Shown here piece after piece: positions 49,051-60,180 of a DNA stretch of 60,180 nt; position 1 is the stretch's first letter, and each line of letters starts with the position of its first letter. The position numbers were made by a program, and so were the translations under genes. The notes beneath the pieces were generated by a model. That model was not told the DNA's origin. It did no database searches and worked only from the letters and a program-made list of their open reading frames with translations. Source of the DNA: Chlorobiaceae bacterium (GTDB taxonomy: Bacteria > Bacteroidota > Ignavibacteria > UBA10030 > SZUA-254); the NCBI GenBank assembly GCA_013824245.1, contig PNNN01000005.1, forward strand, positions 1-60,180. The letters run 5' to 3'.

Positions 49051-49797
49051 ATGTCAATAGATTTGGAAAAAATCTTACGCCCGGTTGATATGGTATTGCC
49101 AGAATTTCCAGCAAAATATATGACGCTTTCAAACGGTCAGGAGATGGTAGTACGGCAGGTCAACCGCGATGAGATTCCAGATATCCTCCCCCATGTGGAA
49201 AAACTTATGCACGTTGAGCGGGATTATTATCATATTGTTGCGGCAAGAGTATATGCCGAATTGCTTGCCTACTATACGTATCGTGTGCAGGATGAATATG
49301 TACTTGCCGCGCAAGTAGACGGTGAGATCGTTGCCGTTGTAAACGGAAGAATAGTCAATCCCGATATCGGCATGTCGTTTCATACTTTATCTATGCGTCG
49401 CGGACTTCGAGTTGGCGCGCACGCATTTGCCGCCAAGATGGAATATCATATGGATATTCTAAAACAGAAAGAAGTTTTAATCGTTGCCGAATCGCCCATC
49501 GGCTTTAGACGCTGGATGATCGAATACAAACTTGAAAAGCGTTTTCATATCCCGCATGAATTGGGCGGTTGTCCGTCATGGTCGTTGACGAGAAATTTGT
49601 TTGATAATGCTCGCAACACTCTCGTTGTAGGCAGACGTCCTGTCCCCGAAAAATTACTCGCAAAAGCACACGATGCAATACTTCCACCAACTGATCCTCC
49701 AAAGCCACCCGAAGATTTATTAGCCGCAACACGCTCGATGCTCGATAACACAGGCACATCTCTCATCGACATGAGAAGAAAGTTAGGAGGAATGTAA
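49051..49797 (+). CDS. Unrecognised protein, possibly GNAT-like, first gene of the catabolic operon
   Basis: A 248-residue soluble protein with no signal peptide. The segment KYMTLSNGQEMVVRQVNRDEIPDILP and the downstream EYVLAAQVDGEIVAVVNGRI, then RRGLRVGAHAFAAKMEYH, resemble a GNAT acetyltransferase fold, but no clear acetyl-CoA Q/RxxGxG/A loop is seen. The C-terminus is Pro-rich (PPTDPPKPPEDLL). It starts a tightly packed run with the thiolase-like gene 1 bp after its stop, so it is expected to serve the same CoA-related pathway. Function not identified. Confidence 0.65.
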   Translation: MSIDLEKILRPVDMVLPEFPAKYMTLSNGQEMVVRQVNRDEIPDILPHVEKLMHVERDYYHIVAARVYAELLAYYTYRVQDEYVLAAQVDGEIVAVVNGRIVNPDIGMSFHTLSMRRGLRVGAHAFAAKMEYHMDILKQKEVLIVAESPIGFRRWMIEYKLEKRFHIPHELGGCPSWSLTRNLFDNARNTLVVGRRPVPEKLLAKAHDAILPPTDPPKPPEDLLAATRSMLDNTGTSLIDMRRKLGGM

Positions 49798-49798
49798 T

Positions 49799-50974
49799 AT
49801 GAGAGAAGTTTATGTTGCCGGAATTGGAATTACAAGTTTCACCCGGCTCGAATATCCGCTCGTTGAAATTGCGGCGTATCCCGGATTGATGGCTCTCCGC
49901 GATAGCGGACTAAAGAAAATCGATCAACTATATGTTGCCAATATGGGGAGCGGTAGAGTGAACGGACAAACCGGATTGGCAAGTGCCGTTGTCGATCATT
50001 TGAGTCTTACGCCCGCAGGTGCAGTTACAATTGAAAACGGTCCTGCATCAGGAGCTTCGGCAATCAAAGAAGGATTCATGGCTGTTGCTTCCGGTATGCA
50101 CGATGTTGTTATGGTCATCGGCGCTGAGCGAATGAGAGAAGTCAATCAGCTCGAAGCGACAGATTTTGTTGCAACACTCACTCATCCACTTGCAGAATAT
50201 ATTTACGGCGTAACACTTCCGTCTCTGGCTGGAATGTTTGCGCGTTTGTATATGGAGAAGTATGGAGTAACCTCACGCCACCTTGCAATGGTTGCGGTTA
50301 AAAATCATCATAACGCGATGGATAATTTCTATGCGCATCTGCACGAAGAAATTACACTCGAAGGTATTCTTGATTCTCCCGAAGCATCTACGAATAATCC
50401 GTACGTTGCGGATCCGCTGAGATTTTACGATATGTGTCCTGTCTCGGACGGCGGCGCCTGTTTAATTCTTGTCAGCGCAGATGTGATGAAGAAATTGAAT
50501 AAACCGATGATTCGACTGGCAGGGATCGGACAAGCGACCGACACACACGCGGTTCACGAAAGAAAAGATCCAACTTATCTTTTTGCAGTGCGCGAAGCGG
50601 CGAAAAAATCGTTCGCGATGGCAGGAGTGAAACCGGAAGATGTTGATGTTGCAGAATTGCACGATGCATTCACAATTCTTGAAATTGCGGAAAGCGAAGA
50701 AGTCGGTTTCTTCAAAAAAGGTGAAGGACATATCGCGCTTGAAAAAGGCGAAACTAAAATTGGCGGTAAAATCCCGATCAATCCATCCGGCGGTTTAAAA
50801 GCAAAAGGACATCCAGTTGGAGCAACCGGCGTCGGACAGGCGCATGAGATTGTTCTTCAGTTAAGAGGAGAAGCCAAAAAGCGTCAGGTTAAAAATGCCA
50901 AAATCGGATTTACATGTAACTTCGGCGGCTTCGGAAATAATGTTGTCTGTCTTACTTTTATAAAGGAGAAATGA
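49799..50974 (+). CDS. Thiolase-fold protein lacking the nucleophilic cysteine
   Basis: A 391-residue member of the SCP-x/lipid-transfer thiolase group. Where thiolases have E-N-x-C-A-S-G, this protein has E79-N-G-P82-A-S-G (codon CCT at 50042). The His of AELHDAFT and the His of KGHPVGATG are present, and a second Cys is in FTCNFGG. Such Cys-less thiolase folds with a DUF35 partner include the retro-aldolases of sterol side-chain breakdown (Ltp2-like), so C-C lyase or condensing activity, not acetyl transfer, is likely. AGGAGG precedes the ATG. It overlaps the DUF35 gene by ATGA. Confidence 0.88.
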   Translation: MREVYVAGIGITSFTRLEYPLVEIAAYPGLMALRDSGLKKIDQLYVANMGSGRVNGQTGLASAVVDHLSLTPAGAVTIENGPASGASAIKEGFMAVASGMHDVVMVIGAERMREVNQLEATDFVATLTHPLAEYIYGVTLPSLAGMFARLYMEKYGVTSRHLAMVAVKNHHNAMDNFYAHLHEEITLEGILDSPEASTNNPYVADPLRFYDMCPVSDGGACLILVSADVMKKLNKPMIRLAGIGQATDTHAVHERKDPTYLFAVREAAKKSFAMAGVKPEDVDVAELHDAFTILEIAESEEVGFFKKGEGHIALEKGETKIGGKIPINPSGGLKAKGHPVGATGVGQAHEIVLQLRGEAKKRQVKNAKIGFTCNFGGFGNNVVCLTFIKEK

Positions 50975-51324
50975 AAATGGAATTAAACATATACGCATAC
51001 AAATGCAAACGCTGCGGACATATTCATTATCCTTATAAAACAATTTGCAAGAATTGCGGAGAGAACGACCATAACGAATTCGATATCGTTCCGTTGCCGA
51101 AAAAAGGTAAGTTGCTCACTTATACAACACTTTACAATCCCCCATCCGATTACGAAGTTCCCACATTAGCGCTTGGCATCGTTGAATTAGAAGGTGGTCA
51201 TCGAATCACAGGACAATTGAACATTAAAAATCCAAAGATAGGAATGAATGTCGAGGGAAAAGTGGAAGTAGTTCGCAAAGAGGCATACAATAAACATTTA
51301 GGAATGGTTTTCTATCAGGCATGA
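50971..51324 (+). CDS. DUF35 zinc-ribbon/OB-fold protein
   Basis: A 117-residue protein: an N-terminal rubredoxin-like zinc ribbon (YKCKRCGHIHYP.. ICKNCGEN, four Cys) followed by an OB fold (GKLLTYTTLYNPPSDYEVPTLALGIVELEGG). In thiolase-like aldolases and archaeal thiolase/HMG-CoA synthase complexes a DUF35 subunit bridges or channels acyl-CoA, so it is most likely the obligate partner of the upstream thiolase-fold protein. Starts overlap the thiolase stop (ATGA) and its own stop overlaps the DUF2877 start the same way. Confidence 0.9.
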   Translation: MKMELNIYAYKCKRCGHIHYPYKTICKNCGENDHNEFDIVPLPKKGKLLTYTTLYNPPSDYEVPTLALGIVELEGGHRITGQLNIKNPKIGMNVEGKVEVVRKEAYNKHLGMVFYQA

Positions 51325-52145
51325 TAGAAATCGTCAGTCACGGAAACCAAATCCGCCGGGGTAAATATTATTTACATTCGAAATTTACTTTGGCGGTGAA
51401 TTTTTGTTCCGATGATTCTTTTGTTTTCGTTGTCAATAAAGAAGTCGGATCGGGACCGCTTAACATTGTTGTGCAAGGAGTTGCGGTCGATTCCATCTCG
51501 TCTCTGGAAGTCGGCAGTGATGGTTTCTATCTCAATGGAGATAAGTTTTATTTTGATGAGTTGAAGATATACGATTCTAAATTGCAGATATCTGACTTCA
51601 TCGAGGAAAAGTTTAATCGTAATCTAAGTTTCTTTGAATCAACTCTTATTGAATTCTCTCCACCGAAAAGTTTAGCGTTCCTTCTTGATGAAAGTAGAAG
51701 GAATGAATTCACATCATCATTCGAGATTGAATACATCAAGCGGTTTGAGAATGCCGTTCAATTATTTCTATCGGATGATTTTCTTCATGGGATTAAAATA
51801 CTCAAGGGCTTAGGTCCCGGGCTTACACCGAGCGGTGACGATTTTATTTCGGGAGTTCTGATTGCATTGAATTTACAAAGCATGATAAATTCGTCCGACA
51901 ATTCAAATGTCATCGAACAGATATATAAAACGGCTGAAAGCGGAAATCATTTTACAACCGCATTTTTGAGATGCGCAGCAAATGGATTTTTGTTTGAGAA
52001 GTTTAAACGATTGATTGATTCCCTTCTGTATGCCGGTGAAGATGAGATTATTCAAAACACGAGATCGTTATTTACAATAGGAGCAACATCCGGCGCAGAT
52101 CAAGCAGTCGGTTTTCTCATCGGTATTAAAAGGTTTATACTATGA
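51321..52145 (+). CDS. DUF2877 protein (YlbF/AllH-like)
   Basis: A 274-residue protein with the hallmark LGPGLTPSGDDFISGVLIAL (about 155-175). DUF2877 is fused or adjacent to fdrA and ylbE in the E. coli allantoin locus, where the trio has been linked to oxamate carbamoyltransferase (allFGH naming in recent annotations; I rely on memory for this). Here it overlaps both neighbours by ATGA: the DUF35 gene before and fdrA after, so the subunits are probably made in a fixed ratio. Confidence 0.85.
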   Translation: MIEIVSHGNQIRRGKYYLHSKFTLAVNFCSDDSFVFVVNKEVGSGPLNIVVQGVAVDSISSLEVGSDGFYLNGDKFYFDELKIYDSKLQISDFIEEKFNRNLSFFESTLIEFSPPKSLAFLLDESRRNEFTSSFEIEYIKRFENAVQLFLSDDFLHGIKILKGLGPGLTPSGDDFISGVLIALNLQSMINSSDNSNVIEQIYKTAESGNHFTTAFLRCAANGFLFEKFKRLIDSLLYAGEDEIIQNTRSLFTIGATSGADQAVGFLIGIKRFIL

Positions 52146-53701
52146 ATATTATTGGAATTATAAAAAAAGGCGAATACTACGATTCAATCTCGATCATGCT
52201 GATTGCGAAAAAGGTTGCAGAGTATGATGGTGTGCTTGATTCTGCCGTCGTGATGGGAACAAAAGAAAACAAATCCGTACTCACTTCTTCCGGTTTGATG
52301 ACACCCGATATTCAACCGGCTGGAGAGATGGATCTCATCGTTGCACTAAAACTTAAAGAGGGTATCGATTCAAAGAATGTTCTTTCAAAGATCGATGAAA
52401 TTTTCAAGGCGACAAATAAATCGGATGACGGTGAGAATTTTACACCACAAAGCATCGACAGCGCGTTGAATGTTTTGCCGGATGCGAATATGGCAATGAT
52501 TTCTGTTGCCGGAAGATACGCGGGTGACGTAGCAATGCAGTCGCTTCGGCGCGGGCTTCATGTGATGCTTTTTTCCGACAACGTTCCGATTGAAAAAGAA
52601 ATCGAATTGAAAAAATTCGCTCGTGAGAAAAATCTGTTTGTCATGGGTCCCGATTGCGGAACGGCAATTATCAACGGTGTGCCGCTCGCGTTTGCTAATG
52701 TTGTAAACCGCGGAAACATTGGTATTGTTGCCGCTTCGGGGACAGGTTTGCAGGAAGTGAGTTGCTTGATTTCGAATGCGGGTTGTGGAATTTCTCAGGC
52801 AATCGGCACAGGCGGTCGCGATGTGAAGAAGGAGGTCGGTGGCATCATGTTCATCGAGGGGATAAAAGCTCTGGCAGCAGATCCAAACACGGACGTTATC
52901 CTCCTTGTCTCGAAACCGCCGGCAACTGAAGTTGTGGAGAAAATTATTTCTGTCGTGCGCGGAATTCAGAAACCGGTCATCGGTGTTTTCCTCGGCGCAT
53001 CACCAGAACTTCTAAGAGGAAGCAATATTCATCAGGCATTAACACTTGAAGAAGCGGCTTCGCTTTCAGTTGCTTACTCGAAAAAAGAAAATGCTTCTGC
53101 CGTTGCCGATGTGCTGAAGAAACGCGAAGCTGAAATCATAAAGATGGCAAAGGAAGAAGTGGTGAAACTCTCTCCCGCTCAAAAATATCTTCGCGCACTG
53201 TACAGCGGCGGAACATTCTGCGACGAGGCACAATTGCTTTGTCAAAATGTTTTGGGCGAAGTGTATTCCAATATTCCATTCGGCAGCAGCAAGAAATTAA
53301 AAGATTCATGGAAAAGCGAGAAGCATACGATTTTAGATTTAGGCGATGATGAATTTACAGTCGGCAAGCCGCACCCGATGATTGACTACTCCACACGCAA
53401 CAAGCGCATCCTCGCCGAAGCCGAAAACCCCGAAACCGCAGTTATTTTATTAGATATTGTTCTCGGCTACGGCTCGAACATGAATCCGCTGGCGGAAATA
53501 ATTCCTATAATAAAAGAGGTGAAGGAAATTACCACTCAACAAAAACGATATTTACCAATTGTTTGCTCTGTTACCGGCACCGATAAAGACCCTCAGAATC
53601 GAACCGCACTTGTTACTGCACTCGAAGCGGAAGGCATGAAGGTGATGGAATCGAATGCGGCGGCAAGCAGGTTGGCGGTTTCTATAATTAATCACTTATG
53701 A
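52142..53701 (+). CDS. fdrA: FdrA-family protein (acyl-CoA-synthetase-like, AllF homologue)
   Basis: A 519-residue protein related to the alpha subunit of succinyl-CoA synthetase. A CoA-binding-like N-terminal region is followed by GRYAGDVAMQSLRRG, KNLFVMGPDCGTAIINGVPLAF, GNIGIVAASGTGLQE and GCGISQAIGTGGRDVKKEVGG, then a C-terminal half with ALEAEGMKVMESNAAASRLA. E. coli FdrA is encoded with ylbE and ylbF in the allantoin operon and is linked to oxamate carbamoyl transfer. The phosphohistidine region of true synthetases is not obvious. It overlaps DUF2877 and is separated from DUF1116 by an 82-bp spacer that holds a palindrome. Confidence 0.88.
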   Translation: MNIIGIIKKGEYYDSISIMLIAKKVAEYDGVLDSAVVMGTKENKSVLTSSGLMTPDIQPAGEMDLIVALKLKEGIDSKNVLSKIDEIFKATNKSDDGENFTPQSIDSALNVLPDANMAMISVAGRYAGDVAMQSLRRGLHVMLFSDNVPIEKEIELKKFAREKNLFVMGPDCGTAIINGVPLAFANVVNRGNIGIVAASGTGLQEVSCLISNAGCGISQAIGTGGRDVKKEVGGIMFIEGIKALAADPNTDVILLVSKPPATEVVEKIISVVRGIQKPVIGVFLGASPELLRGSNIHQALTLEEAASLSVAYSKKENASAVADVLKKREAEIIKMAKEEVVKLSPAQKYLRALYSGGTFCDEAQLLCQNVLGEVYSNIPFGSSKKLKDSWKSEKHTILDLGDDEFTVGKPHPMIDYSTRNKRILAEAENPETAVILLDIVLGYGSNMNPLAEIIPIIKEVKEITTQQKRYLPIVCSVTGTDKDPQNRTALVTALEAEGMKVMESNAAASRLAVSIINHL

Positions 53702-53757
53702 TCTTTGCGAACCTTAGCGTTCTTAGCGGTTAAATAAAACCGCCAAGGACGCAAAGA
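53702..53757. repeat. Interspersed palindrome between fdrA and the DUF1116 gene
   Basis: The segment ctttgcgaaccttagcg..cggtt is partly complementary to aaccgccaaggacgcaaag further right, giving an imperfect hairpin. It is a shorter relative of the repeat at 55228-55339. It lies between two genes of the operon and may process or stabilise the message. Confidence 0.55.
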
Positions 53758-53783
53758 AAAAGATAAGAAAACGGAAATCTTTT

Positions 53784-55190
53784 ATGAACAAACTATTCGA
53801 ACAGGAACTCAAAGTCGTCAACATCGGACTCAAGTTGTTCAAAGAAACACTCGACAAACAAAATGTGAAATCGGTGCACGTCGATTGGCGACCGCCGCTG
53901 TTCACGGATGACAAAGCGATGTCGATCATCAAATCGAATGCCGATAAAATTGAAGCGGCAAATAAGCAGGCGCTTCAAAAAATCCTGAACAGCAAACCAT
54001 TCATCGTCGGGATGGGAAAAGCACTCGACGTAATTCCTGGCATGAAGAAAAATCTTCTCCTCCATGCAGGTCCGCCGGTTACGTGGGACAAAATGTGTGG
54101 TCCGATGCGCGGCGCCGTCATCGGTGCGCTGATCTACGAAGGCATTGCCGACACTCCCGAAAAAGCCGAGCAGGTTGCCGCATCGGGTCAAATCGAATTC
54201 TCTCCGTGTCATGAACATTCGGCAGTCGGACCAATGGCGGGAATTGTTTCTCCGTCGATGCCAGTGTTTATTTTGCAGAACGAAGAATATAGCAACAAGG
54301 CATACTGCACGATGAACGAGGGTCTCGGCAAGGTTCTCAGATATGGCGCATTCAGCGGTGATGTTATTGAGAGGTTAAAGTGGATGGAGAATATTCTTTA
54401 TCCTTCGCTTAAGAGGGCAATTGAGAAAATAGGAAAGATCGATTTGAAAAATATCATCGCGCAAGCGCTTCAGATGGGCGATGAAGTTCATAATCGGAAC
54501 AGAGCCGCAACGTCGCTTTTATATAGAACGCTCGCCCCATCAGTTATCCAAACGACGGACGATAAAGAAATTGCAGCGAATGTTCTCGAGTTCATCAACC
54601 GTAACGATCATTTCTTCCTCAATCTTTCGATGGGCGCTTCGAAAATCTCGCTGGATGCCGCACGTAACATCGGGCATTCAAGTATTGTCGTCGTGATGGC
54701 AAGGAATGGGACGGAGTTCGGCGTTCAACTTTCCGGAACGGGCGATCAGTGGTTTACCGGTCCATCACCGGTTCCTGACGCGCTCTTCTTCACGGGCTTC
54801 ACGAAAGAAGACGCGAATCCCGATATTGGCGACAGTTCAATAACCGAGACAAATGGTTTGGGCGGATTCGCAATTGCAGCGTCGCCGGCAATTGTGCAGT
54901 TTGTCGGTGGCACAACAAAAGATGCGATCAATTACACACTGAAAATGTACGAGATCACTGCGGCTGAAAATAATATTTATAAAATCCCGTATCTCAACTT
55001 TCGCGGTACACCGACAGGAATCGATGTTATAAAAGTTGTGGAAAAGAATATTCTTCCGTTTATTGATACAGGGGTCGCGCATAAAAATGCAGGCATCGGG
55101 CAAATCGGTGCGGGCGTTTTGAGCGCGCCTTCGGAACCGTTTGTGAAAGCGATTATTGGTTTGTCAGAACGAATTAGAAAACAAGAATAA
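53784..55190 (+). CDS. DUF1116 protein (YlbE/AllG homologue)
   Basis: A 468-residue protein of the YlbE/YahG group. Conserved-looking blocks include PFIVGMGKALDVIPGM, LLHAGPPVTWDKMCGPMRGAVIGALIYEG, FSPCHEHSAVGPMAGIVSPSMPVF, and FFLNLSMGASK followed by NIGHSSIVVVMARNGTEFGVQLSG. The YlbE family works with FdrA and DUF2877 in the E. coli allantoin locus (oxamate carbamoyltransferase). The His-rich EHSAVGP loop may bind phosphate or carbamoyl phosphate; this is inference. The Shine-Dalgarno is weak. Confidence 0.87.
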   Translation: MNKLFEQELKVVNIGLKLFKETLDKQNVKSVHVDWRPPLFTDDKAMSIIKSNADKIEAANKQALQKILNSKPFIVGMGKALDVIPGMKKNLLLHAGPPVTWDKMCGPMRGAVIGALIYEGIADTPEKAEQVAASGQIEFSPCHEHSAVGPMAGIVSPSMPVFILQNEEYSNKAYCTMNEGLGKVLRYGAFSGDVIERLKWMENILYPSLKRAIEKIGKIDLKNIIAQALQMGDEVHNRNRAATSLLYRTLAPSVIQTTDDKEIAANVLEFINRNDHFFLNLSMGASKISLDAARNIGHSSIVVVMARNGTEFGVQLSGTGDQWFTGPSPVPDALFFTGFTKEDANPDIGDSSITETNGLGGFAIAASPAIVQFVGGTTKDAINYTLKMYEITAAENNIYKIPYLNFRGTPTGIDVIKVVEKNILPFIDTGVAHKNAGIGQIGAGVLSAPSEPFVKAIIGLSERIRKQE

Positions 55191-55227
55191 TTTCTATACC
55201 CTCACCACTACGATCGTGTAGAAAGAA

Positions 55228-55339
55228 TCTGCGTGAACCTTAGTGTTCTTAGTGGCTTAGTGGTGTTGGATTTATATTTAATTCATAATCAAAACATATT
55301 TACCACTAAGTCACTAAGCTCACGAAGGAACACTAAGAA
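55228..55339. repeat. Large interspersed hairpin repeat in the operon
   Basis: The arm with cttagtgttcttagtggc (within 55230-55263) is inverted to accactaagtcactaagc and aggaacactaag (within 55302-55337), about 30 bp of imperfect stem with a 38-nt loop. The same theme occurs at 53702-53757. It occupies most of the 229-bp gap between DUF1116 and the cyclase gene and could end or attenuate transcription. Confidence 0.65.
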
Positions 55340-55419
55340 ATATTTACTTTTTGGGTAACCTCGAATGAGGAAAGGGTCTTGAAAATCTTAATAAACATTA
55401 CTAAAAAAGGAACAATAAA

Positions 55420-56247
55420 ATGAAAACTCAAGAATTTTTAAATTTCATGGATAGACTAAAAGTCTACGATCTCACACAACGGCTCAGCATCCACACACCA
55501 CCGTGGCCCAGCTACATGCCGCTTGGGATTCAATACTTCAAACGGATTGCCGGCGCGCACATGGGGCAAGGCGCAAACGGACAAATCATCACAACGAGCA
55601 ATCACGTCGGCACACATATGGATGGCGAGATTCATTTTCATGCATCCGGACGATCAATCGGAAATGTTCCGATGAACGAATGGATTGGCCAGGGTGTTGT
55701 AGTTGATATATCGAAAGAAGTCGGTGACTATGATCTTTACACACCAGAAATGTTGATGAAGAAAGTTGAAATAAAAAAAGGCGACATCCTCATCATCAAC
55801 ACCGGCTACAACCGTTACGCGTGGGATCAGAAAGGTTCTGATGAGATTCGATATTTCGTAAAGCACCCCGGACCGGGACCCGGCTTTCACAAGTGGGCGC
55901 TTGAGATGAAAATAAAATGGATCGGTGTCGATTGCGGAAGCGCAGATCATCCGATGAACACCATCATTCGTCAATGGCATCCTGCCCGATTTACAGAAGC
56001 CGAAGCGAAGCTGAAGCGGAAGTACGGAGTGAATTCGTGGGACGAAATGTTTCCGCAGGATGAATATTATCAGGTTATGCACCTGAAACTGTTCCCCAAA
56101 AAATTGGTGCATGCTGAAAACCTTGGCGGCGATATTAACAAGCTCAGCAACAAACGTTGTTGGATAGGATGCTTCCCGTTGAGAGGCATCGAGTTAGAAT
56201 CAGCGATGTGTCGTATTGTTGCATTTCTACCACCGAATGGAAAATAA
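55420..56247 (+). CDS. Cyclase/amidohydrolase family protein (COG1878, kynurenine-formamidase-like)
   Basis: A 275-residue metal-dependent hydrolase. The metal site is HVGTHMDGEIHFH (around residues 62-74; HxGTHxDxxxH). Further motifs are KKGDILIINTGYNRY and GVDCGSADHPMNT. Relatives are isatin hydrolase, kynurenine formamidase and lactone or amide ring-opening enzymes. The likely step here is hydrolysis of a cyclic amide or lactone made after molybdenum hydroxylation. It has AAAGGAA as Shine-Dalgarno and is 20 bp from the next gene. Confidence 0.85.
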   Translation: MKTQEFLNFMDRLKVYDLTQRLSIHTPPWPSYMPLGIQYFKRIAGAHMGQGANGQIITTSNHVGTHMDGEIHFHASGRSIGNVPMNEWIGQGVVVDISKEVGDYDLYTPEMLMKKVEIKKGDILIINTGYNRYAWDQKGSDEIRYFVKHPGPGPGFHKWALEMKIKWIGVDCGSADHPMNTIIRQWHPARFTEAEAKLKRKYGVNSWDEMFPQDEYYQVMHLKLFPKKLVHAENLGGDINKLSNKRCWIGCFPLRGIELESAMCRIVAFLPPNGK

Positions 56248-56266
56248 TTTTTTTGGAGAATACAAA

Positions 56267-57154
56267 GTGCCAATAATTCATAAATTTGATTACCTAAAAC
56301 CAAAAAGCATAGACGAGGCATTAACGGTTCTTGCACAATCAAAGAACCCGGCAATACTTGCAGGTGGCACCGATCTCGTTGATATGATAAAAGAAAATGT
56401 TGTTCAGCCCGATGTGGTTGTTGACATCAAGGGACTCGATGCGCTCAATCAGATTAAGTTTGAAAATGATACACTTTTCATCGGGGCAGGTGTTACGTTT
56501 TCAGATTTGATCGAATCGAAAATCATTAAAGAAAAATACCCCGTAATCTTTGAGATAGCCAAAACAGTTGCGTCAGTCGGAATTCGAAACAGAGCAACGG
56601 TTGTCGGCAACATCTGCTCGGCTCTACCGTGCATGGATAGCGGTCCATTGTTATCGGCATACGACGCAAGCGTGACGATTGCGGGACAGAAAGGCACGCG
56701 AAATATTCCCGCCGCCGAATGGTTCATTGCTCCGCGCAAGACCGCTCTCCAAAAAGGCGAACTGGTTACCGGCGTTTCGTTACCGTATCCGAAAGTGAAG
56801 CACGCCGGATGCTGGATTAAGCTTGGTCGCTATACCGGTGAAGATCTTGCACAGGTGAATTTACTCATTCTCGCGATGGCTGATGGAACGTTCAGGATTT
56901 CGTTCGGGGCGGTTGCACCGGTTCCCGTTCGTGCAAAGAAAATCGAGAAACTTATAAACGGGCAAGCAATTACTCCCTCACTGATTGAAAAAGCGAAACA
57001 ATTAATCGAGGAAGAAATCAAACCGATAACCGATGTACGCGCGACCAAAGAGTATCGGATGCATATGGCAAAAGTAATGTTTGAAAGAGGAATGAACGCA
57101 GCAATCAGTAGATTGAACGGTTGTGGTCCCGAATATGGAACAAGTGTGATATAG
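56267..57154 (+). CDS. Xanthine-dehydrogenase family FAD-binding subunit (GTG start)
   Basis: A 295-residue CoxM/XdhB-type subunit passing electrons from the Fe-S subunit to FAD. FAD-binding motifs are AILAGGTDLVDMIKENV (around 30-45) and GIRNRATVVGNICSALPCMDSGPLLSAY. I prefer the GTG at 56267 (VPIIHKFDYLKPKS), with GGAG 8 bp upstream, over an ATG at 56216 in the preceding gene, because the former gives the family's standard N-terminus. It is the middle-size subunit of a three-subunit molybdenum hydroxylase. Confidence 0.9.
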   Translation: MPIIHKFDYLKPKSIDEALTVLAQSKNPAILAGGTDLVDMIKENVVQPDVVVDIKGLDALNQIKFENDTLFIGAGVTFSDLIESKIIKEKYPVIFEIAKTVASVGIRNRATVVGNICSALPCMDSGPLLSAYDASVTIAGQKGTRNIPAAEWFIAPRKTALQKGELVTGVSLPYPKVKHAGCWIKLGRYTGEDLAQVNLLILAMADGTFRISFGAVAPVPVRAKKIEKLINGQAITPSLIEKAKQLIEEEIKPITDVRATKEYRMHMAKVMFERGMNAAISRLNGCGPEYGTSVI

Positions 57155-57160
57155 AAAATT

Positions 57161-57193
57161 AACCTTGCGAAGGTTTTGAGCCTTCGCAAGGTT
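57161..57193. repeat. Perfect 13-bp hairpin between the hydroxylase subunit genes
   Basis: aaccttgcgaagg (57161-57173) and ccttcgcaaggtt (57181-57193) form a 13-bp stem with a 7-nt loop. It has the aaccttcg theme also seen at 5973-6079. It may act as an mRNA stabiliser or attenuator in the operon. Confidence 0.75.
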
Positions 57194-57216
57194 CAGCTTA
57201 GAATGGAGAAAGCTTT

Positions 57217-57672
57217 ATGAAAAAAGAAATCAAATTTAATTTAAATGGTGAAGCGATTACGTTGGAAGTCAATCCTAACGAAGTATTGCTCGAAGTATTA
57301 CGGGATCGGCTCGGAGCGAAAAGTCCGAAGTGCGGCTGTGACAAAGGCGATTGCGGCACATGCACAGTGATGATCAACGGAAAAACAGTCCGCAGTTGCC
57401 TTGTTCTTGCCATCGAAATTGATGGTCAGGAAGTTGTTACTCTTGAAGGACTTATGGATAGCGGTTTGACTCCCTTACAAAAATCGTTCATCGAGCATAA
57501 TTCGTTTCAATGCGGATTTTGTGCGCCCGGAATGATTCTATCTGCAACAGAGCTTCTCGCGAAGAATCAAAAACCAAAAAGAGAAGAAATTCAGGAAGCG
57601 CTTTCGGGCAATTTATGCAGGTGCACCGGATATACTCCCATTATTGATGCAATTACAAATTTGACAAAATGA
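57217..57672 (+). CDS. Xanthine-dehydrogenase family [2Fe-2S] subunit
   Basis: A 151-residue CoxS/XdhC-type protein with two [2Fe-2S] clusters: the plant-type ferredoxin C-x4-C-x2-C (CGCDKGDCGTC) and a distal Cys in RSC, then the helical domain CGFC and CRCTGY. It transfers electrons from the molybdenum centre to FAD. It has GGAG before the ATG and follows the FAD subunit after the hairpin at 57161. The order FAD, FeS, Mo subunit is typical. Confidence 0.93.
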   Translation: MKKEIKFNLNGEAITLEVNPNEVLLEVLRDRLGAKSPKCGCDKGDCGTCTVMINGKTVRSCLVLAIEIDGQEVVTLEGLMDSGLTPLQKSFIEHNSFQCGFCAPGMILSATELLAKNQKPKREEIQEALSGNLCRCTGYTPIIDAITNLTK

Positions 57673-57673
57673 A

Positions 57674-57822
57674 GTCCCATCGGGACGAAATGTATATAGC
57701 ACGATATCGGAGACCGTTTTTAAAACTCCGTAGGAGTGACATCTTATTTAATATTTCGCTCCGATGGAGCTTATATAGTTTTATGGTTATGTTTTCTATA
57801 AATATACCGTCCCTAACGGGAC
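57674..57822. repeat. Mosaic of four short palindromes before the Mo subunit gene
   Basis: gtcccatcgggac (57674-57686), actccgtaggagt (57725-57737), gctccgatggagc (57758-57770) and gtccctaacgggac (57809-57822) are each self-complementary, with AT-rich spacers such as aaatgtatatagc. They fill the intergenic space 57673-57861 and look like related REP-type units. No gene is visible between them. Confidence 0.75.
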
Positions 57823-57861
57823 TTGGATTATGAAATTAACATTGATAAGCACGAGAGTTTT

Positions 57862-60180
57862 ATGACAGAAAATAAATACATCGGAAAGTCAACAATCAGG
57901 ATTGACGGAAAAGCTAAAGTATCCGGTGCGGCAGAATTCATCGACGATCTTGATTTCGGTCCCGATCTCCTCCACGCCGCAATAGTCGAGAGCAAATTCG
58001 CGCACGCCATCATCAACAAAATCGATACAAGCGAAGCGGAGAATATTGCCGGCGTTGTAAAGATTGTTACAGGGAAAGATTTCCCCTTCCGGTTCGGACT
58101 TTATATGCACGATCGATTCATCTTTGCTCAAGATAGAGTAAGATTTGTTGGAGAACAGATCGGCGCTGTAATAGCGAGAGATGCGGCAACTGCATTGAAA
58201 GCGGCAAAGCTTGTGAAAGTAGATTACACTGAACTTCCGGCAATTCTCAACGTCGAGCAGGCGCTCGCAAAAGATGCAAACCTCATTCACCCTGAACTTC
58301 GACATTATAAACACGTTCCATGGTTCTTTCCAAAAAGCGACACAAACATTGCTCATCTTAGAAAAGTTAGAAAAGGTGATGTTGCTAAAGCTTTCAAAGA
58401 AGCAGATTTTATTTTCGAAGACACATACACGGTTCCCCGTTACGCGCACTGTGCAATCGAAGTTCACGGCGCGGTTGGTTTGTACGACAATTCAGATCGG
58501 CTGACAGTTTGGACGGCATCTCAATCTCCATATACACAAAGAAACCTGTTTGCAGAAGCGCTAGCCCCTCTCGGATTATCGCATAAAGATATTCGGGTTA
58601 TAACGCCGTTTATTGGCGGCGGTTTCGGCGGTAAAGCTGGAGTTTCTATGGAAATTCTTGGCGCTGCGTTAGCAACTGCCGTTAAAGGAAGACCGGTGAA
58701 AGTTCTCTGGTCACGTGCTCAGGAGTTTTATAACACATACCAGCGTCAAGGTTTGACTGCCCGCATCAAAGTCGGCTTGAAAAAAGACGGCACGATTATC
58801 GCGATGGATAATATTTTGAATTGGGACGCAGGCGCGTACGTCGAATATGGCGCCAATGTCGTCAATGCGGCAGGTCTTTCCGCTTCAGGTCCGTACAATA
58901 TTCCAAACGTCAGTATTGATTCGGTTTGCGTCTATACAAATCTTCCGCCTGGCGGACCATACCGCGGATTTGGGTATTCTGAATTTTTATTCGGACTAGA
59001 ATCTCATCTGAATGAGATTGCAAAGAAAATGAATATCGATCCGATACAACTTCGTCGCAAGAACGCAATTCGTGAAGGAGATATTTTAAATTACGGCGGC
59101 AAGATGAATGCCAACGGTCTGATTGAGGCGATAGATAAAGTTGAAAAAGAAATTGAATGGAATAAGAAAGAAATATCGAGCGATCCGAACAAGGCAATCG
59201 GTAAAGGAATTGCATTATTTTGGAAAGCGCCCGCTATGCCGCCGAACGCTTCCTCCTCTGCGTTTTTAAAATTCAATGAAGACGGAAGTATCAACATTCT
59301 CATCTCGGGAATGGAGATAGGTCAGGGACTTTTGACAGTCATGGCACAAATCGCGGCTGAAGTTCTAACTGTTCCGCCGGAAAAGATACGGGTTGAAACA
59401 CCGGACACAGATAGAAATCCTTATGAATGGCAAACGGTCGGCTCGCATGTTACGTGGGGATGCGGCAGAGCGGTTGAGAGCGCGGCTATAGATGCGCGTG
59501 AACAAATTTTCGATCTTGTTGAGCGGGCACTCGACAAAGATAGAAATTCACTTTATCTTGAAAATGAATCAGTGAGATCGAAGACAGATACTAATTTCTC
59601 TTTGAAGCTTCGTGATTTTATTATTGCAGGGATTCAGAAACCGGACGGATCGTACCGAGGTGGACCGATTCTCGGACGAGGAATGTTCATGCCGGAATTT
59701 ACATCTGCATTGAGCGACCCCGAAACAAGTCAAGGCGGACATCCAAATGTTCACTACACAGTCGGTGCAAGCGCAGTCAAAATTGAAGTTGATAAACAGA
59801 CAGGCAAAGTAAAAATTCCAAAAGTTGTTCTCGCTGTCGATGTTGGCAAAGCTCTCAACCCCGATTTAATCAACGGTCAAATCACCGGCGGATTATTGCA
59901 GGGAATCGCTACTGTCCTTTATGAGGATATGCGGTTCAATGAGAAAGGTAAACTTGTAAACGCTAATTTTACCGATTATAAAATTCCAACATCGATGGAT
60001 ATCCCTGATGAGATAGTCCCGATTATCATAGAAGTACCTCAACCTGATGGACCTTTCGGCGCACGAGGAGTTGGCGAGCACACGATGATACCATGCGCTC
60101 CGATGATTGCTAACGCTGTTGATGATGCGCTTGGGATCAGAATCAAATCGATGCCGATCACGGCGGAGAAGATAGCGCTG
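57862..60180 (+). CDS. Xanthine-dehydrogenase family molybdopterin-binding subunit (partial, runs off window)
   Basis: An open reading frame of 773 codons with no stop before the window edge; the family is about 750-800 residues, so little is missing. Motifs: N-terminal RIDGKAKVSGAAEF; PFIGGGFGGKAG (molybdopterin contact); GGPYRGFGYSEF; GMEIGQG; and near the end FGARGVGEHTMIP, whose Glu is the catalytic base equivalent to that of xanthine oxidase. Start ATG at 57862 has GAGAG upstream. It would hydroxylate an N-heterocyclic or aldehyde substrate with water as oxygen source. Confidence 0.92.
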   Translation, partial: MTENKYIGKSTIRIDGKAKVSGAAEFIDDLDFGPDLLHAAIVESKFAHAIINKIDTSEAENIAGVVKIVTGKDFPFRFGLYMHDRFIFAQDRVRFVGEQIGAVIARDAATALKAAKLVKVDYTELPAILNVEQALAKDANLIHPELRHYKHVPWFFPKSDTNIAHLRKVRKGDVAKAFKEADFIFEDTYTVPRYAHCAIEVHGAVGLYDNSDRLTVWTASQSPYTQRNLFAEALAPLGLSHKDIRVITPFIGGGFGGKAGVSMEILGAALATAVKGRPVKVLWSRAQEFYNTYQRQGLTARIKVGLKKDGTIIAMDNILNWDAGAYVEYGANVVNAAGLSASGPYNIPNVSIDSVCVYTNLPPGGPYRGFGYSEFLFGLESHLNEIAKKMNIDPIQLRRKNAIREGDILNYGGKMNANGLIEAIDKVEKEIEWNKKEISSDPNKAIGKGIALFWKAPAMPPNASSSAFLKFNEDGSINILISGMEIGQGLLTVMAQIAAEVLTVPPEKIRVETPDTDRNPYEWQTVGSHVTWGCGRAVESAAIDAREQIFDLVERALDKDRNSLYLENESVRSKTDTNFSLKLRDFIIAGIQKPDGSYRGGPILGRGMFMPEFTSALSDPETSQGGHPNVHYTVGASAVKIEVDKQTGKVKIPKVVLAVDVGKALNPDLINGQITGGLLQGIATVLYEDMRFNEKGKLVNANFTDYKIPTSMDIPDEIVPIIIEVPQPDGPFGARGVGEHTMIPCAPMIANAVDDALGIRIKSMPITAEKIAL

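Follow-up and report, generated by a model that had tools for sequence, protein, structure and literature searches.

What does an operon degrade that joins the subunits of an oxamic transcarbamylase to a molybdenum (Mo) hydroxylase, a metal-dependent hydrolase and a thiolase without its catalytic cysteine? The question is raised by positions 49051-60180 of contig PNNN01000005.1, from a Chlorobiaceae bacterium whose genome (assembly GCA_013824245.1) comprises 3.2 Mb in 76 contigs; the window is that entire contig of 60,180 nucleotides. Ten open reading frames (ORFs), all on the + strand and numbered g1 to g10, occupy the region: a GNAT-thiolase-DUF35 module (g1-g3), homologues of AllH, AllF/FdrA and AllG (g4-g6), a Cyclase-family hydrolase (g7) and a three-subunit Mo hydroxylase (g8-g10). 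An original prediction, made from the sequence, had seen here an uncharacterised catabolic operon that hydroxylates a nitrogen heterocycle, opens it, cleaves a C-C bond in a coenzyme A (CoA) ester and conserves energy through a carbamoyl- or acyl-phosphate-type step, the substrate being left unnamed. That interpretation is right in outline. Hydroxylation followed by ring opening is supported, cleavage of a C-C bond in a CoA ester is no more than a possibility, and the substrate is narrowed, with moderate confidence, to what is probably uracil, with barbiturate as intermediate.

The operon probably encodes an energy-conserving variant of oxidative pyrimidine (uracil) degradation, of which we infer every substrate and reaction. 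The hydroxylase g8-g10 would convert uracil to barbiturate, and the isatin-hydrolase-like g7 would open barbiturate to ureidomalonate, replacing the unrelated AtzD/Bar-type barbiturase. The AllFGH-type proteins g4-g6 would split ureidomalonate with phosphate into carbamoyl phosphate and malonamate, and a carbamate kinase encoded elsewhere would yield adenosine triphosphate (ATP). (Ureidomalonate is oxalurate plus one CH2 group, and the same AllFGH chemistry would therefore give malonamate and carbamoyl phosphate.) Finally, g1-g3 might act as a CoA-dependent complex on the C3 product to form acetyl-CoA, CO2 and ammonia; this step is the least certain and is put forward tentatively. The argument starts from what computation establishes directly: gene content, co-conservation, mutual exclusion of g7 and barbiturase in 51 genomes, loss of the thiolase cysteine, and folds.

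A co-conserved gene set and its ring opener

Carriers of the module were gathered by one contig scan of genomes with g2, which gave 59 loci, many of them on short contigs; the scan required exact g2 peptide patterns and so undercounts distant carriers. The g1-g2-g3 block stands in this order at 52 loci, and FdrA and AllG are on the same retrieved stretch at 25. All ten genes are present at nine of the 59 (L009, L011, L018, L022, L023, L027, L029, L030 and L040) and also at L005, in the order seen in the window, with extra ORFs between some genes at L011, L022, L030 and L040. Nearly all carrier records are metagenome-assembled by title, and their titles include Ignavibacteria/Bacteroidota, KSB1, Neomarinimicrobiota, Zixiibacteriota, Terriglobia, Verrucomicrobia, Kiritimatiellae, Lentisphaerae, Bdellovibrionales, Elusimicrobia, Riflebacteria/Ozemobacter, Planctomycetota, Eisenbacteria, Deltaproteobacteria, Hydrogenedentes, Methylomirabilis, Actinomycetes/Acidimicrobiia, Bipolaricaulota and Clostridiaceae. 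In its best segment g2 is 74-97% identical to the window's protein at 49 of the 59 loci; identity of this degree across phyla may point to spread by horizontal transfer.

Whole genomes were compared in a set of 51, consisting of the genomes of 49 of these loci, the window's own (G000) and its sister of the same genus (G172), all gathered through g2. AllG is present in 45 and a g7 homologue (E<=1e-20) in 40; any one of AllG, g7 or barbiturase is found in 48, the exceptions being G232, G239 and G243 (of which G243 shows an incomplete cyclase match where L058 ends). Where the g1-g3 block is alone, FdrA, AllG, cyclase and Mo hydroxylase are often grouped elsewhere in the genome: on a different contig in L109, L110, L114 and L115, on another contig and in different order in L104, and ~15 kb from the module on the same contig in L103.

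A less biased test used 240 genomes of the phylum of G212 (the Verrucomicrobia record of L023), with g1 (E<=1e-20), the cyclase (E<=1e-50) and AllG as queries; these matched in 8, 9 and 17 genomes, respectively. AllG exceeds 290 bits in nine of its 17 genomes, and these coincide with the nine that have the cyclase; g1 is in eight of them vs 0 of the remaining 231 (Fisher p 4e-14). When five genomes first met through the module are excluded, g1 is found in 3/4 vs 0/231 (p 1.9e-6), cyclase in 4/4 vs 0/231 (p 8e-9), and g1 against AllG of any type in 3/12 vs 0/223 (p 1e-4). In the window's own phylum, g1 occurs in 2 of 198 genomes and AllG in 2 of 196, and the two genomes are the same. The thiolase pair and the FdrA trio, whose failure to be co-conserved had been named as grounds for giving up the original prediction, thus go together in both samples (51 and 240 genomes) as one functional set; the co-conservation of the module with AllG and cyclase also disposes of two independent operons standing side by side.

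The other eight AllG genomes of the 240 score 136-217 bits, and theirs is, judged by sequence, a different AllG type. Stretches of 17-18 kb from five of them revealed no cyclase, Mo or module gene. In L154 the low-scoring AllG is accompanied by FdrA at 34% identity; in L155-L158 no FdrA, cyclase or Mo match accompanies it on the retrieved stretches, and in L155, L156 and L158 a dehydratase-like gene (recognised by eye) stands beside it.

The hydrolase of the original prediction, to which that reading gave its own label COG1878, belongs to the Cyclase family PF04199, with a Pfam score over the cut-off and the HxGTHxD motif; all 28 homologues compared have its HxGTHxDG metal motif. By sequence g7 matches kynurenine formamidase best, and isatin hydrolases are the nearest structures to its model (15-18% identity, template modelling score ~0.6, root-mean-square deviation (rmsd) near 13 Å). 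Confidence in the model is low at the metal loop, residues 58-69, and for this reason no residue-level conclusion is drawn from it. Barbiturase (PF09663) is found in six of the 51 carriers (G230, G231 and G233-G236), four of them titled Actinomycetes/Acidimicrobiia and two (L045, L048) only "bacterium". No g7 match occurs in these six, vs 40 of the other 45 (p 2.6e-5), and PF09663 has no match in the window's genome or its sister. At L043, genes for barbiturase, AllH, FdrA, AllG, the flavin adenine dinucleotide (FAD), iron-sulphur and Mo subunits, GNAT, thiolase, DUF35 and an NCS2 permease form a single run, with no g7 match on the locus. At the four barbiturase loci where the Mo subunit could be read (L043, at 68%, L047, L048 and L050), it is 68-70% identical to that of the window's three-subunit enzyme, for which oxidation of uracil is the predicted activity. 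The hydrolase g7 is presumed to be a second, non-homologous barbiturase.

All three AllFGH subunits are found together in the operon: Pfam and NCBIfam identify the FdrA-DUF1116-DUF2877 trio of the original prediction as AllF (g5), AllG (g6) and AllH (g4). A 2024 paper (PMC11326118) ascribes to AllFGH the reaction oxalurate + Pi = oxamate + carbamoyl phosphate, and gives E. coli AllF as 555 aa. By analogy, g4-g6 are presumed to constitute a ureidomalonate transcarbamylase. A carbamoyl phosphate-forming step, as had been proposed, is supported by this homology, by strong carbamate kinase matches in 46 of the 51 carriers (the others giving four hits near 1e-50, probably other amino-acid kinases, and one genome without any) and by a kinase gene located between barbiturase and AllHFG at actinobacterial loci such as L130. 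A single match each to AllG and carbamate kinase occurs in the window's genome; the kinase lies on a separate contig, C19, and the ten-gene operon contains none.

Barbiturase regions provide a second view of these genes. PF09663 is present in 18 of 296 genomes from the phylum to which G230 belongs, and the 17 regions other than that of G230 were examined, some on short contigs. FdrA and AllG are found in seven (L129-L132, L134, L137 and L138), and in an eighth case, G321, they lie ~15 kb from barbiturase together with a carbamate-kinase homologue (L148); nine of the 17 regions, apart from this one in L148, contain such a homologue. The order in L130 is barbiturase-permease-carbamate kinase-AllH-FdrA-AllG, with a divergent PucR-like regulator; its kinase scores 338 bits with TIGR00746, just under the cut-off, and is over the cut-off of NF009007 (carbamate kinase). 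In L126 and L127 a carbamate-kinase homologue is directly upstream of barbiturase, with no FdrA or AllG match within the stretch examined, and another carbamoyltransferase may act there. A Mo hydroxylase and a CoxG homologue in succession are common to seven extended regions, and in six of them an amidase comes after CoxG (Pfam confirmed five amidases, one CoxG, one HyuA and one HyuB). For this amidase, CoxG, HyuA and HyuB, no homologue was found on the module loci examined (tblastn E<=1e-12). Because that amidase is not found there, the module seems to stand in its place and may deal with malonamate. Beside the module, L041 and L151 have a CN-hydrolase gene; in L021 one, identified by clustering, is ~3 kb away.

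Within the module, g1 has no Pfam or NCBIfam match at E<=0.001; a PDB sequence search with its profile yielded two chance-level matches only, and a plasmid search with g1 yielded none. Its AlphaFold2 model (predicted local distance difference test score 84.5) has N-acetyltransferases as the nearest solved folds (Foldseek E 5e-8), aligns with 8gxk_B at Z 13.3 and rmsd 3.0 (166 aligned; VIA-align) and appears to have the GNAT fold. The loop motif RRGLRVGA, presumably a CoA-loop motif, is present in 55 of 55 homologues. The thiolase had been described as Cys-less, and the position of the catalytic cysteine is indeed taken by proline, both in the window's protein (ENGPASG) and in the aligned residue of 57 of 59 translated homologues, two of the 59 being second retrievals of the same gene; the two homologues lacking the change are the most remote (38% and 36%). 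HDAF or HDCF is retained in 58 of the 59 and GHP in 57. As a thiolase (EC 2.3.1.9/16), g2 therefore has the fold family and HDAF/GHP and lacks the nucleophilic cysteine. The zinc-ribbon pattern of g3 is present in 47 of 47 homologues.

A thiolase that has lost its cysteine and kept HDAF and GHP is likelier to support decarboxylation or hydrolytic cleavage of malonyl- or malonamoyl-CoA than thiolysis. Decarboxylation of malonyl thioesters is possible for ketosynthase-type enzymes without the cysteine, malonyl decarboxylases are found among GNAT-fold enzymes, and Ltp2, a Cys-less thiolase-like protein that works with DUF35, is an aldolase. Because of these precedents, the reaction of g1-g3 is guessed, from analogy and gene position; handling of the C3 product is probably their task and is the weakest step. 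A malonyl-CoA-decarboxylase-like GNAT was sought and is not among the 50 structure matches listed for g1. A broader proposal, possible and rather doubtful, is that an unrecognised uracil pathway extends across uncultured phyla, combining a PF04199 barbiturase, a ureidomalonate transcarbamylase and a three-protein CoA enzyme that makes acetyl-CoA from malonamate or malonate, the second nitrogen possibly being freed by C-C cleavage beside the amide.

Other substrates and other roles

Several results weigh against uracil and against the roles assigned above. The exclusion of g7 by barbiturase involves six genomes only and is confounded by ancestry: its p-value is inflated because four of the six share Actinomycetes/Acidimicrobiia descent. 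To our knowledge, activity has been measured for no protein closely related to g1-g3 or to g7. In the 240-genome sample, G608 has cyclase and AllG and no g1 match. Carbamate kinase is widespread in the background: in the window's phylum 30 of 196 genomes have it, 28 of these lacking AllG, and six of the seven other genomes of the order have it without AllG. Because it is so common, it supports feasibility only, and its value as specific evidence is weakened. A search for an adjoining kinase, as suggested with the original prediction, found no homologue on the module loci. In the actinobacterial regions, the best score of the L130 permease is as a xanthine and not a uracil permease, a D-hydantoinase-like gene stands beside the L129 barbiturase, HyuA is in five of the seven extended regions, and HyuA/HyuB hydantoinase/oxoprolinase genes are found near barbiturases; because of these neighbours, hydantoins may be involved there. 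Eight Mo subunits from barbiturase regions that lack the module were compared with the window's and share only 27-29% identity with it. The barbiturase-like proteins of L117 and L130 exceed the NCBIfam cut-off for cyanuric acid amidohydrolase (461 and 460 vs 360). Finally, pyrimidine-type neighbours are family-level hints, because their specific assignments fall below NCBIfam cut-offs. In L060, the module has as neighbours the cyclase and genes resembling uridine phosphorylase (277.8 bits, cut-off 280.3) and cytosine deaminase (276 bits, cut-off 438); in L111, an NCS2 permease (over the NCS2 cut-off; 332 bits with the uracil permease model, cut-off 477) lies upstream of FdrA-AllG-cyclase with two ORFs between.

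The alternative that survives best, itself improbable, is that the Mo enzyme oxidises a hydantoin or purine fragment to parabanate, which g7 would open to oxalurate and g4-g6 would convert to oxamate and carbamoyl phosphate. Isatin hydrolases open a five-membered 2,3-dione ring, and their resemblance to g7 would suit this chemistry, as would the hydantoin- and xanthine-type actinobacterial neighbours. Among NCBIfam models, those of the xanthine dehydrogenase and 4-hydroxybenzoyl-CoA reductase types fit g10 best, with scores under the cut-off, and the excerpt of PMC11326118 gives AllFGH as proven only for oxalurate/oxamate. Against this are the absence of g7 from the six barbiturase genomes, the close similarity of the Mo subunit at four of their loci and the pyrimidine-type neighbours of cyclase in L060 and L111.

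Slightly less probable is a separate function for the GNAT-thiolase-DUF35 module, which would merely travel with the pathway. In many genomes it stands away from the rest of the set, and three of the 51 show neither AllG, g7 nor barbiturase; what speaks for a shared function is that g1 occurs together with cyclase and AllG across the 240 genomes and that adjacency is retained across several different gene orders.

It is less probable again that the pathway is the pyrimidine one and g7 a later hydrolase (ureidomalonase or malonamate amidase), barbiturate being opened by an unseen enzyme. Cyclase-family enzymes also hydrolyse linear amides, as kynurenine formamidase exemplifies. Yet g7 and barbiturase never occur together in 51 genomes, the barbiturase of L043 is beside AllH-FdrA-AllG where g7 is missing, the nearest structures are those of ring openers, and the AllFGH step makes a ureidomalonase redundant.

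A last alternative, that the actinobacterial relatives degrade cyanuric acid or some other s-triazine and the link to uracil is misleading, is suggested by the NCBIfam scores of L117 and L130 and is very improbable: the closest solved chain to the L117 protein is 5HWE ('Barbiturase', 529 bits), by more than 220 bits over cyanuric acid hydrolases (CAH, <=305), the L043, L117 and L118 proteins share with 5HWE an Asn in place of the Arg188 of CAH (located by a Lys-Arg spacing of 32; at odds with the glutamine given for barbiturases in the excerpt of PMC4051656), and cyanuric acid needs no Mo hydroxylase.

Layout of the operon and variant loci

As originally described, the genes form a same-strand run with 4-base ATGA overlaps at 50971, 51321 and 52142 (Table 1). 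The tenth gene, which had been taken for just a start, has 786 codons in the window and is short of the last ~5 residues and stop by comparison with the complete gene at L005; its start is TTG 57823 or ATG 57862. Together g8-g10 constitute the three subunits of a xanthine-dehydrogenase-type hydroxylase (Pfam/NCBIfam). The complete operon of the sister genome, at L005 on a 1.38-Mb contig, permits the look past 60180 that had been called for: g10 ends five residues on and the next ORF is convergent, so that the ten genes are the whole operon and nothing important is missing past the contig end. The operon is genuine and terminates where the contig terminates.

Table 1. Genes of the operon and the matches that identify them.
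Gene	Coordinates	Strand	Assignment	Match
g1	49051..49797	+	GNAT-fold protein, CoA-loop-like motif RRGLRVGA; first gene of GNAT-thiolase-DUF35 module	
g2	49799..50974	+	SCP2-type thiolase fold, Pro for nucleophilic Cys (ENGPASG); HDAF, GHPVGATG retained; thiolase by Pfam/NCBIfam	
g3	50971..51324	+	DUF35/ChsH2 OB-fold partner, CxxC...CxxC zinc ribbon	Pfam
g4	51321..52145	+	AllH (DUF2877) subunit	PF11392, 4e-24
g5	52142..53701	+	AllF/FdrA subunit	NF004760, 524 bits vs cut-off 433
g6	53784..55190	+	AllG (DUF1116) subunit	PF06545, 8e-99
g7	55420..56247	+	Cyclase-family PF04199 metal hydrolase, presumed barbiturate ring opener	Pfam, 117 bits vs cut-off 23
g8	56216..57154	+	FAD subunit, Mo hydroxylase; start uncertain	PF00941, PF03450
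g9	57217..57672	+	2Fe-2S subunit, Mo hydroxylase	PF01799, PF00111
g10	57862..60180	+	Mo-binding subunit, presumed uracil hydroxylase	PF02738, PF20256, PF01315

Inserts with extra ORFs lie inside the operon, for example in the FdrA/AllG gap, in L007 (10.8-12.4 kb and 15.5-17.2 kb) and L022 (13908-14675); one insert ORF scanned in the window's close relatives had no Pfam match. A single 557-aa frame in G222 (C99:40936-42597) consists of two tandem g7-like cyclases (55% and 48%) and adjoins a second AllG copy (C99:42948-43595), forming a second, related gene set. In G202 (C79:26657-27469) and G224 (C13:5136-5948) the cyclase match runs through a single in-frame TGA, which may be an assembly error, the mark of a pseudogene or a recoded codon. 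A Nitrososphaerales archaeon genome, G246, has a thiolase-DUF35 pair in L061 (51% and 37%) and an AllG-FdrA and AllH-like stretch in L120, with no g1 match in either locus.

Implications and comparison with known systems

The excerpt of PMC3758960 places AtzD/Bar homologues in ~3% of 6423 genomes and describes the oxidative route as rare. Should g7 be a second barbiturase, most carriers escape any survey that looks for Bar (40 genomes with g7 vs 6 with Bar, in the set gathered through g2). AllFGH would then gain a second physiological substrate, a microbial gain of ATP from pyrimidines would be explained, and the unexplained GNAT-thiolase-DUF35 module would become testable with a short list of substrates. 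Neither the type of ring-opening enzyme nor the three-protein CoA module is known to serve in uracil breakdown. Within the open PubMed Central literature searched, the operon remains uncharacterised: no paper linking barbiturase with AllFGH, or the module with either, is among the matches listed.

Two other systems were considered and set aside, since different enzymes are used: the reductive uric acid pathway (PMC12507026) and Rubrobacter allantoate carbamoyltransferase (PMC4016543), each as presented in the excerpt available. Floodplain nitrifiers with allFGHK are read as oxalurate users in the corresponding excerpt of PMC12625717. Like E. coli AllFGH, the window's operon has all three subunits of an oxamic transcarbamylase; unlike E. 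coli AllFGH/AllK, it is without a carbamate kinase, its AllF has 519 aa as against 555, and another carbamoyl substrate is predicted for it.

In the textbook pathway, Bar and ureidomalonase turn barbiturate into malonate and urea (PMC3758960, excerpt), with, as we read it, no ATP-yielding step; the excerpt gives no ureidomalonase sequence. The predicted uracil-barbiturate-ureidomalonate logic is that of oxidative pyrimidine degradation (uracil/thymine dehydrogenase, Bar, ureidomalonase), and a Bar-like barbiturase is present in six carriers, at L043 in the same run. The differences from the classical Bar pathway are a PF04199 ring opener, predicted cleavage by phosphate with ATP gain in place of hydrolysis to urea, and the additional GNAT-thiolase-DUF35 module; membership in the classical pathway is not claimed, because the window's genome has no match to the AtzD/Bar-type barbiturase (PF09663). 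With isatin hydrolase and kynurenine formamidase, g7 shares PF04199, the HxGTHxD motif and the fold; it differs in having DGEIH where the usual Cyclase-family form is DxPxH, and in being unusually conserved among carriers. The module, in turn, shares an SCP2-type thiolase fold and an adjacent DUF35 partner with the thiolase-DUF35 complexes BbsAB, archaeal acetoacetyl-CoA thiolase and Ltp2-ChsH2, and is set apart from them by proline in place of the catalytic cysteine and by its GNAT-fold neighbour.

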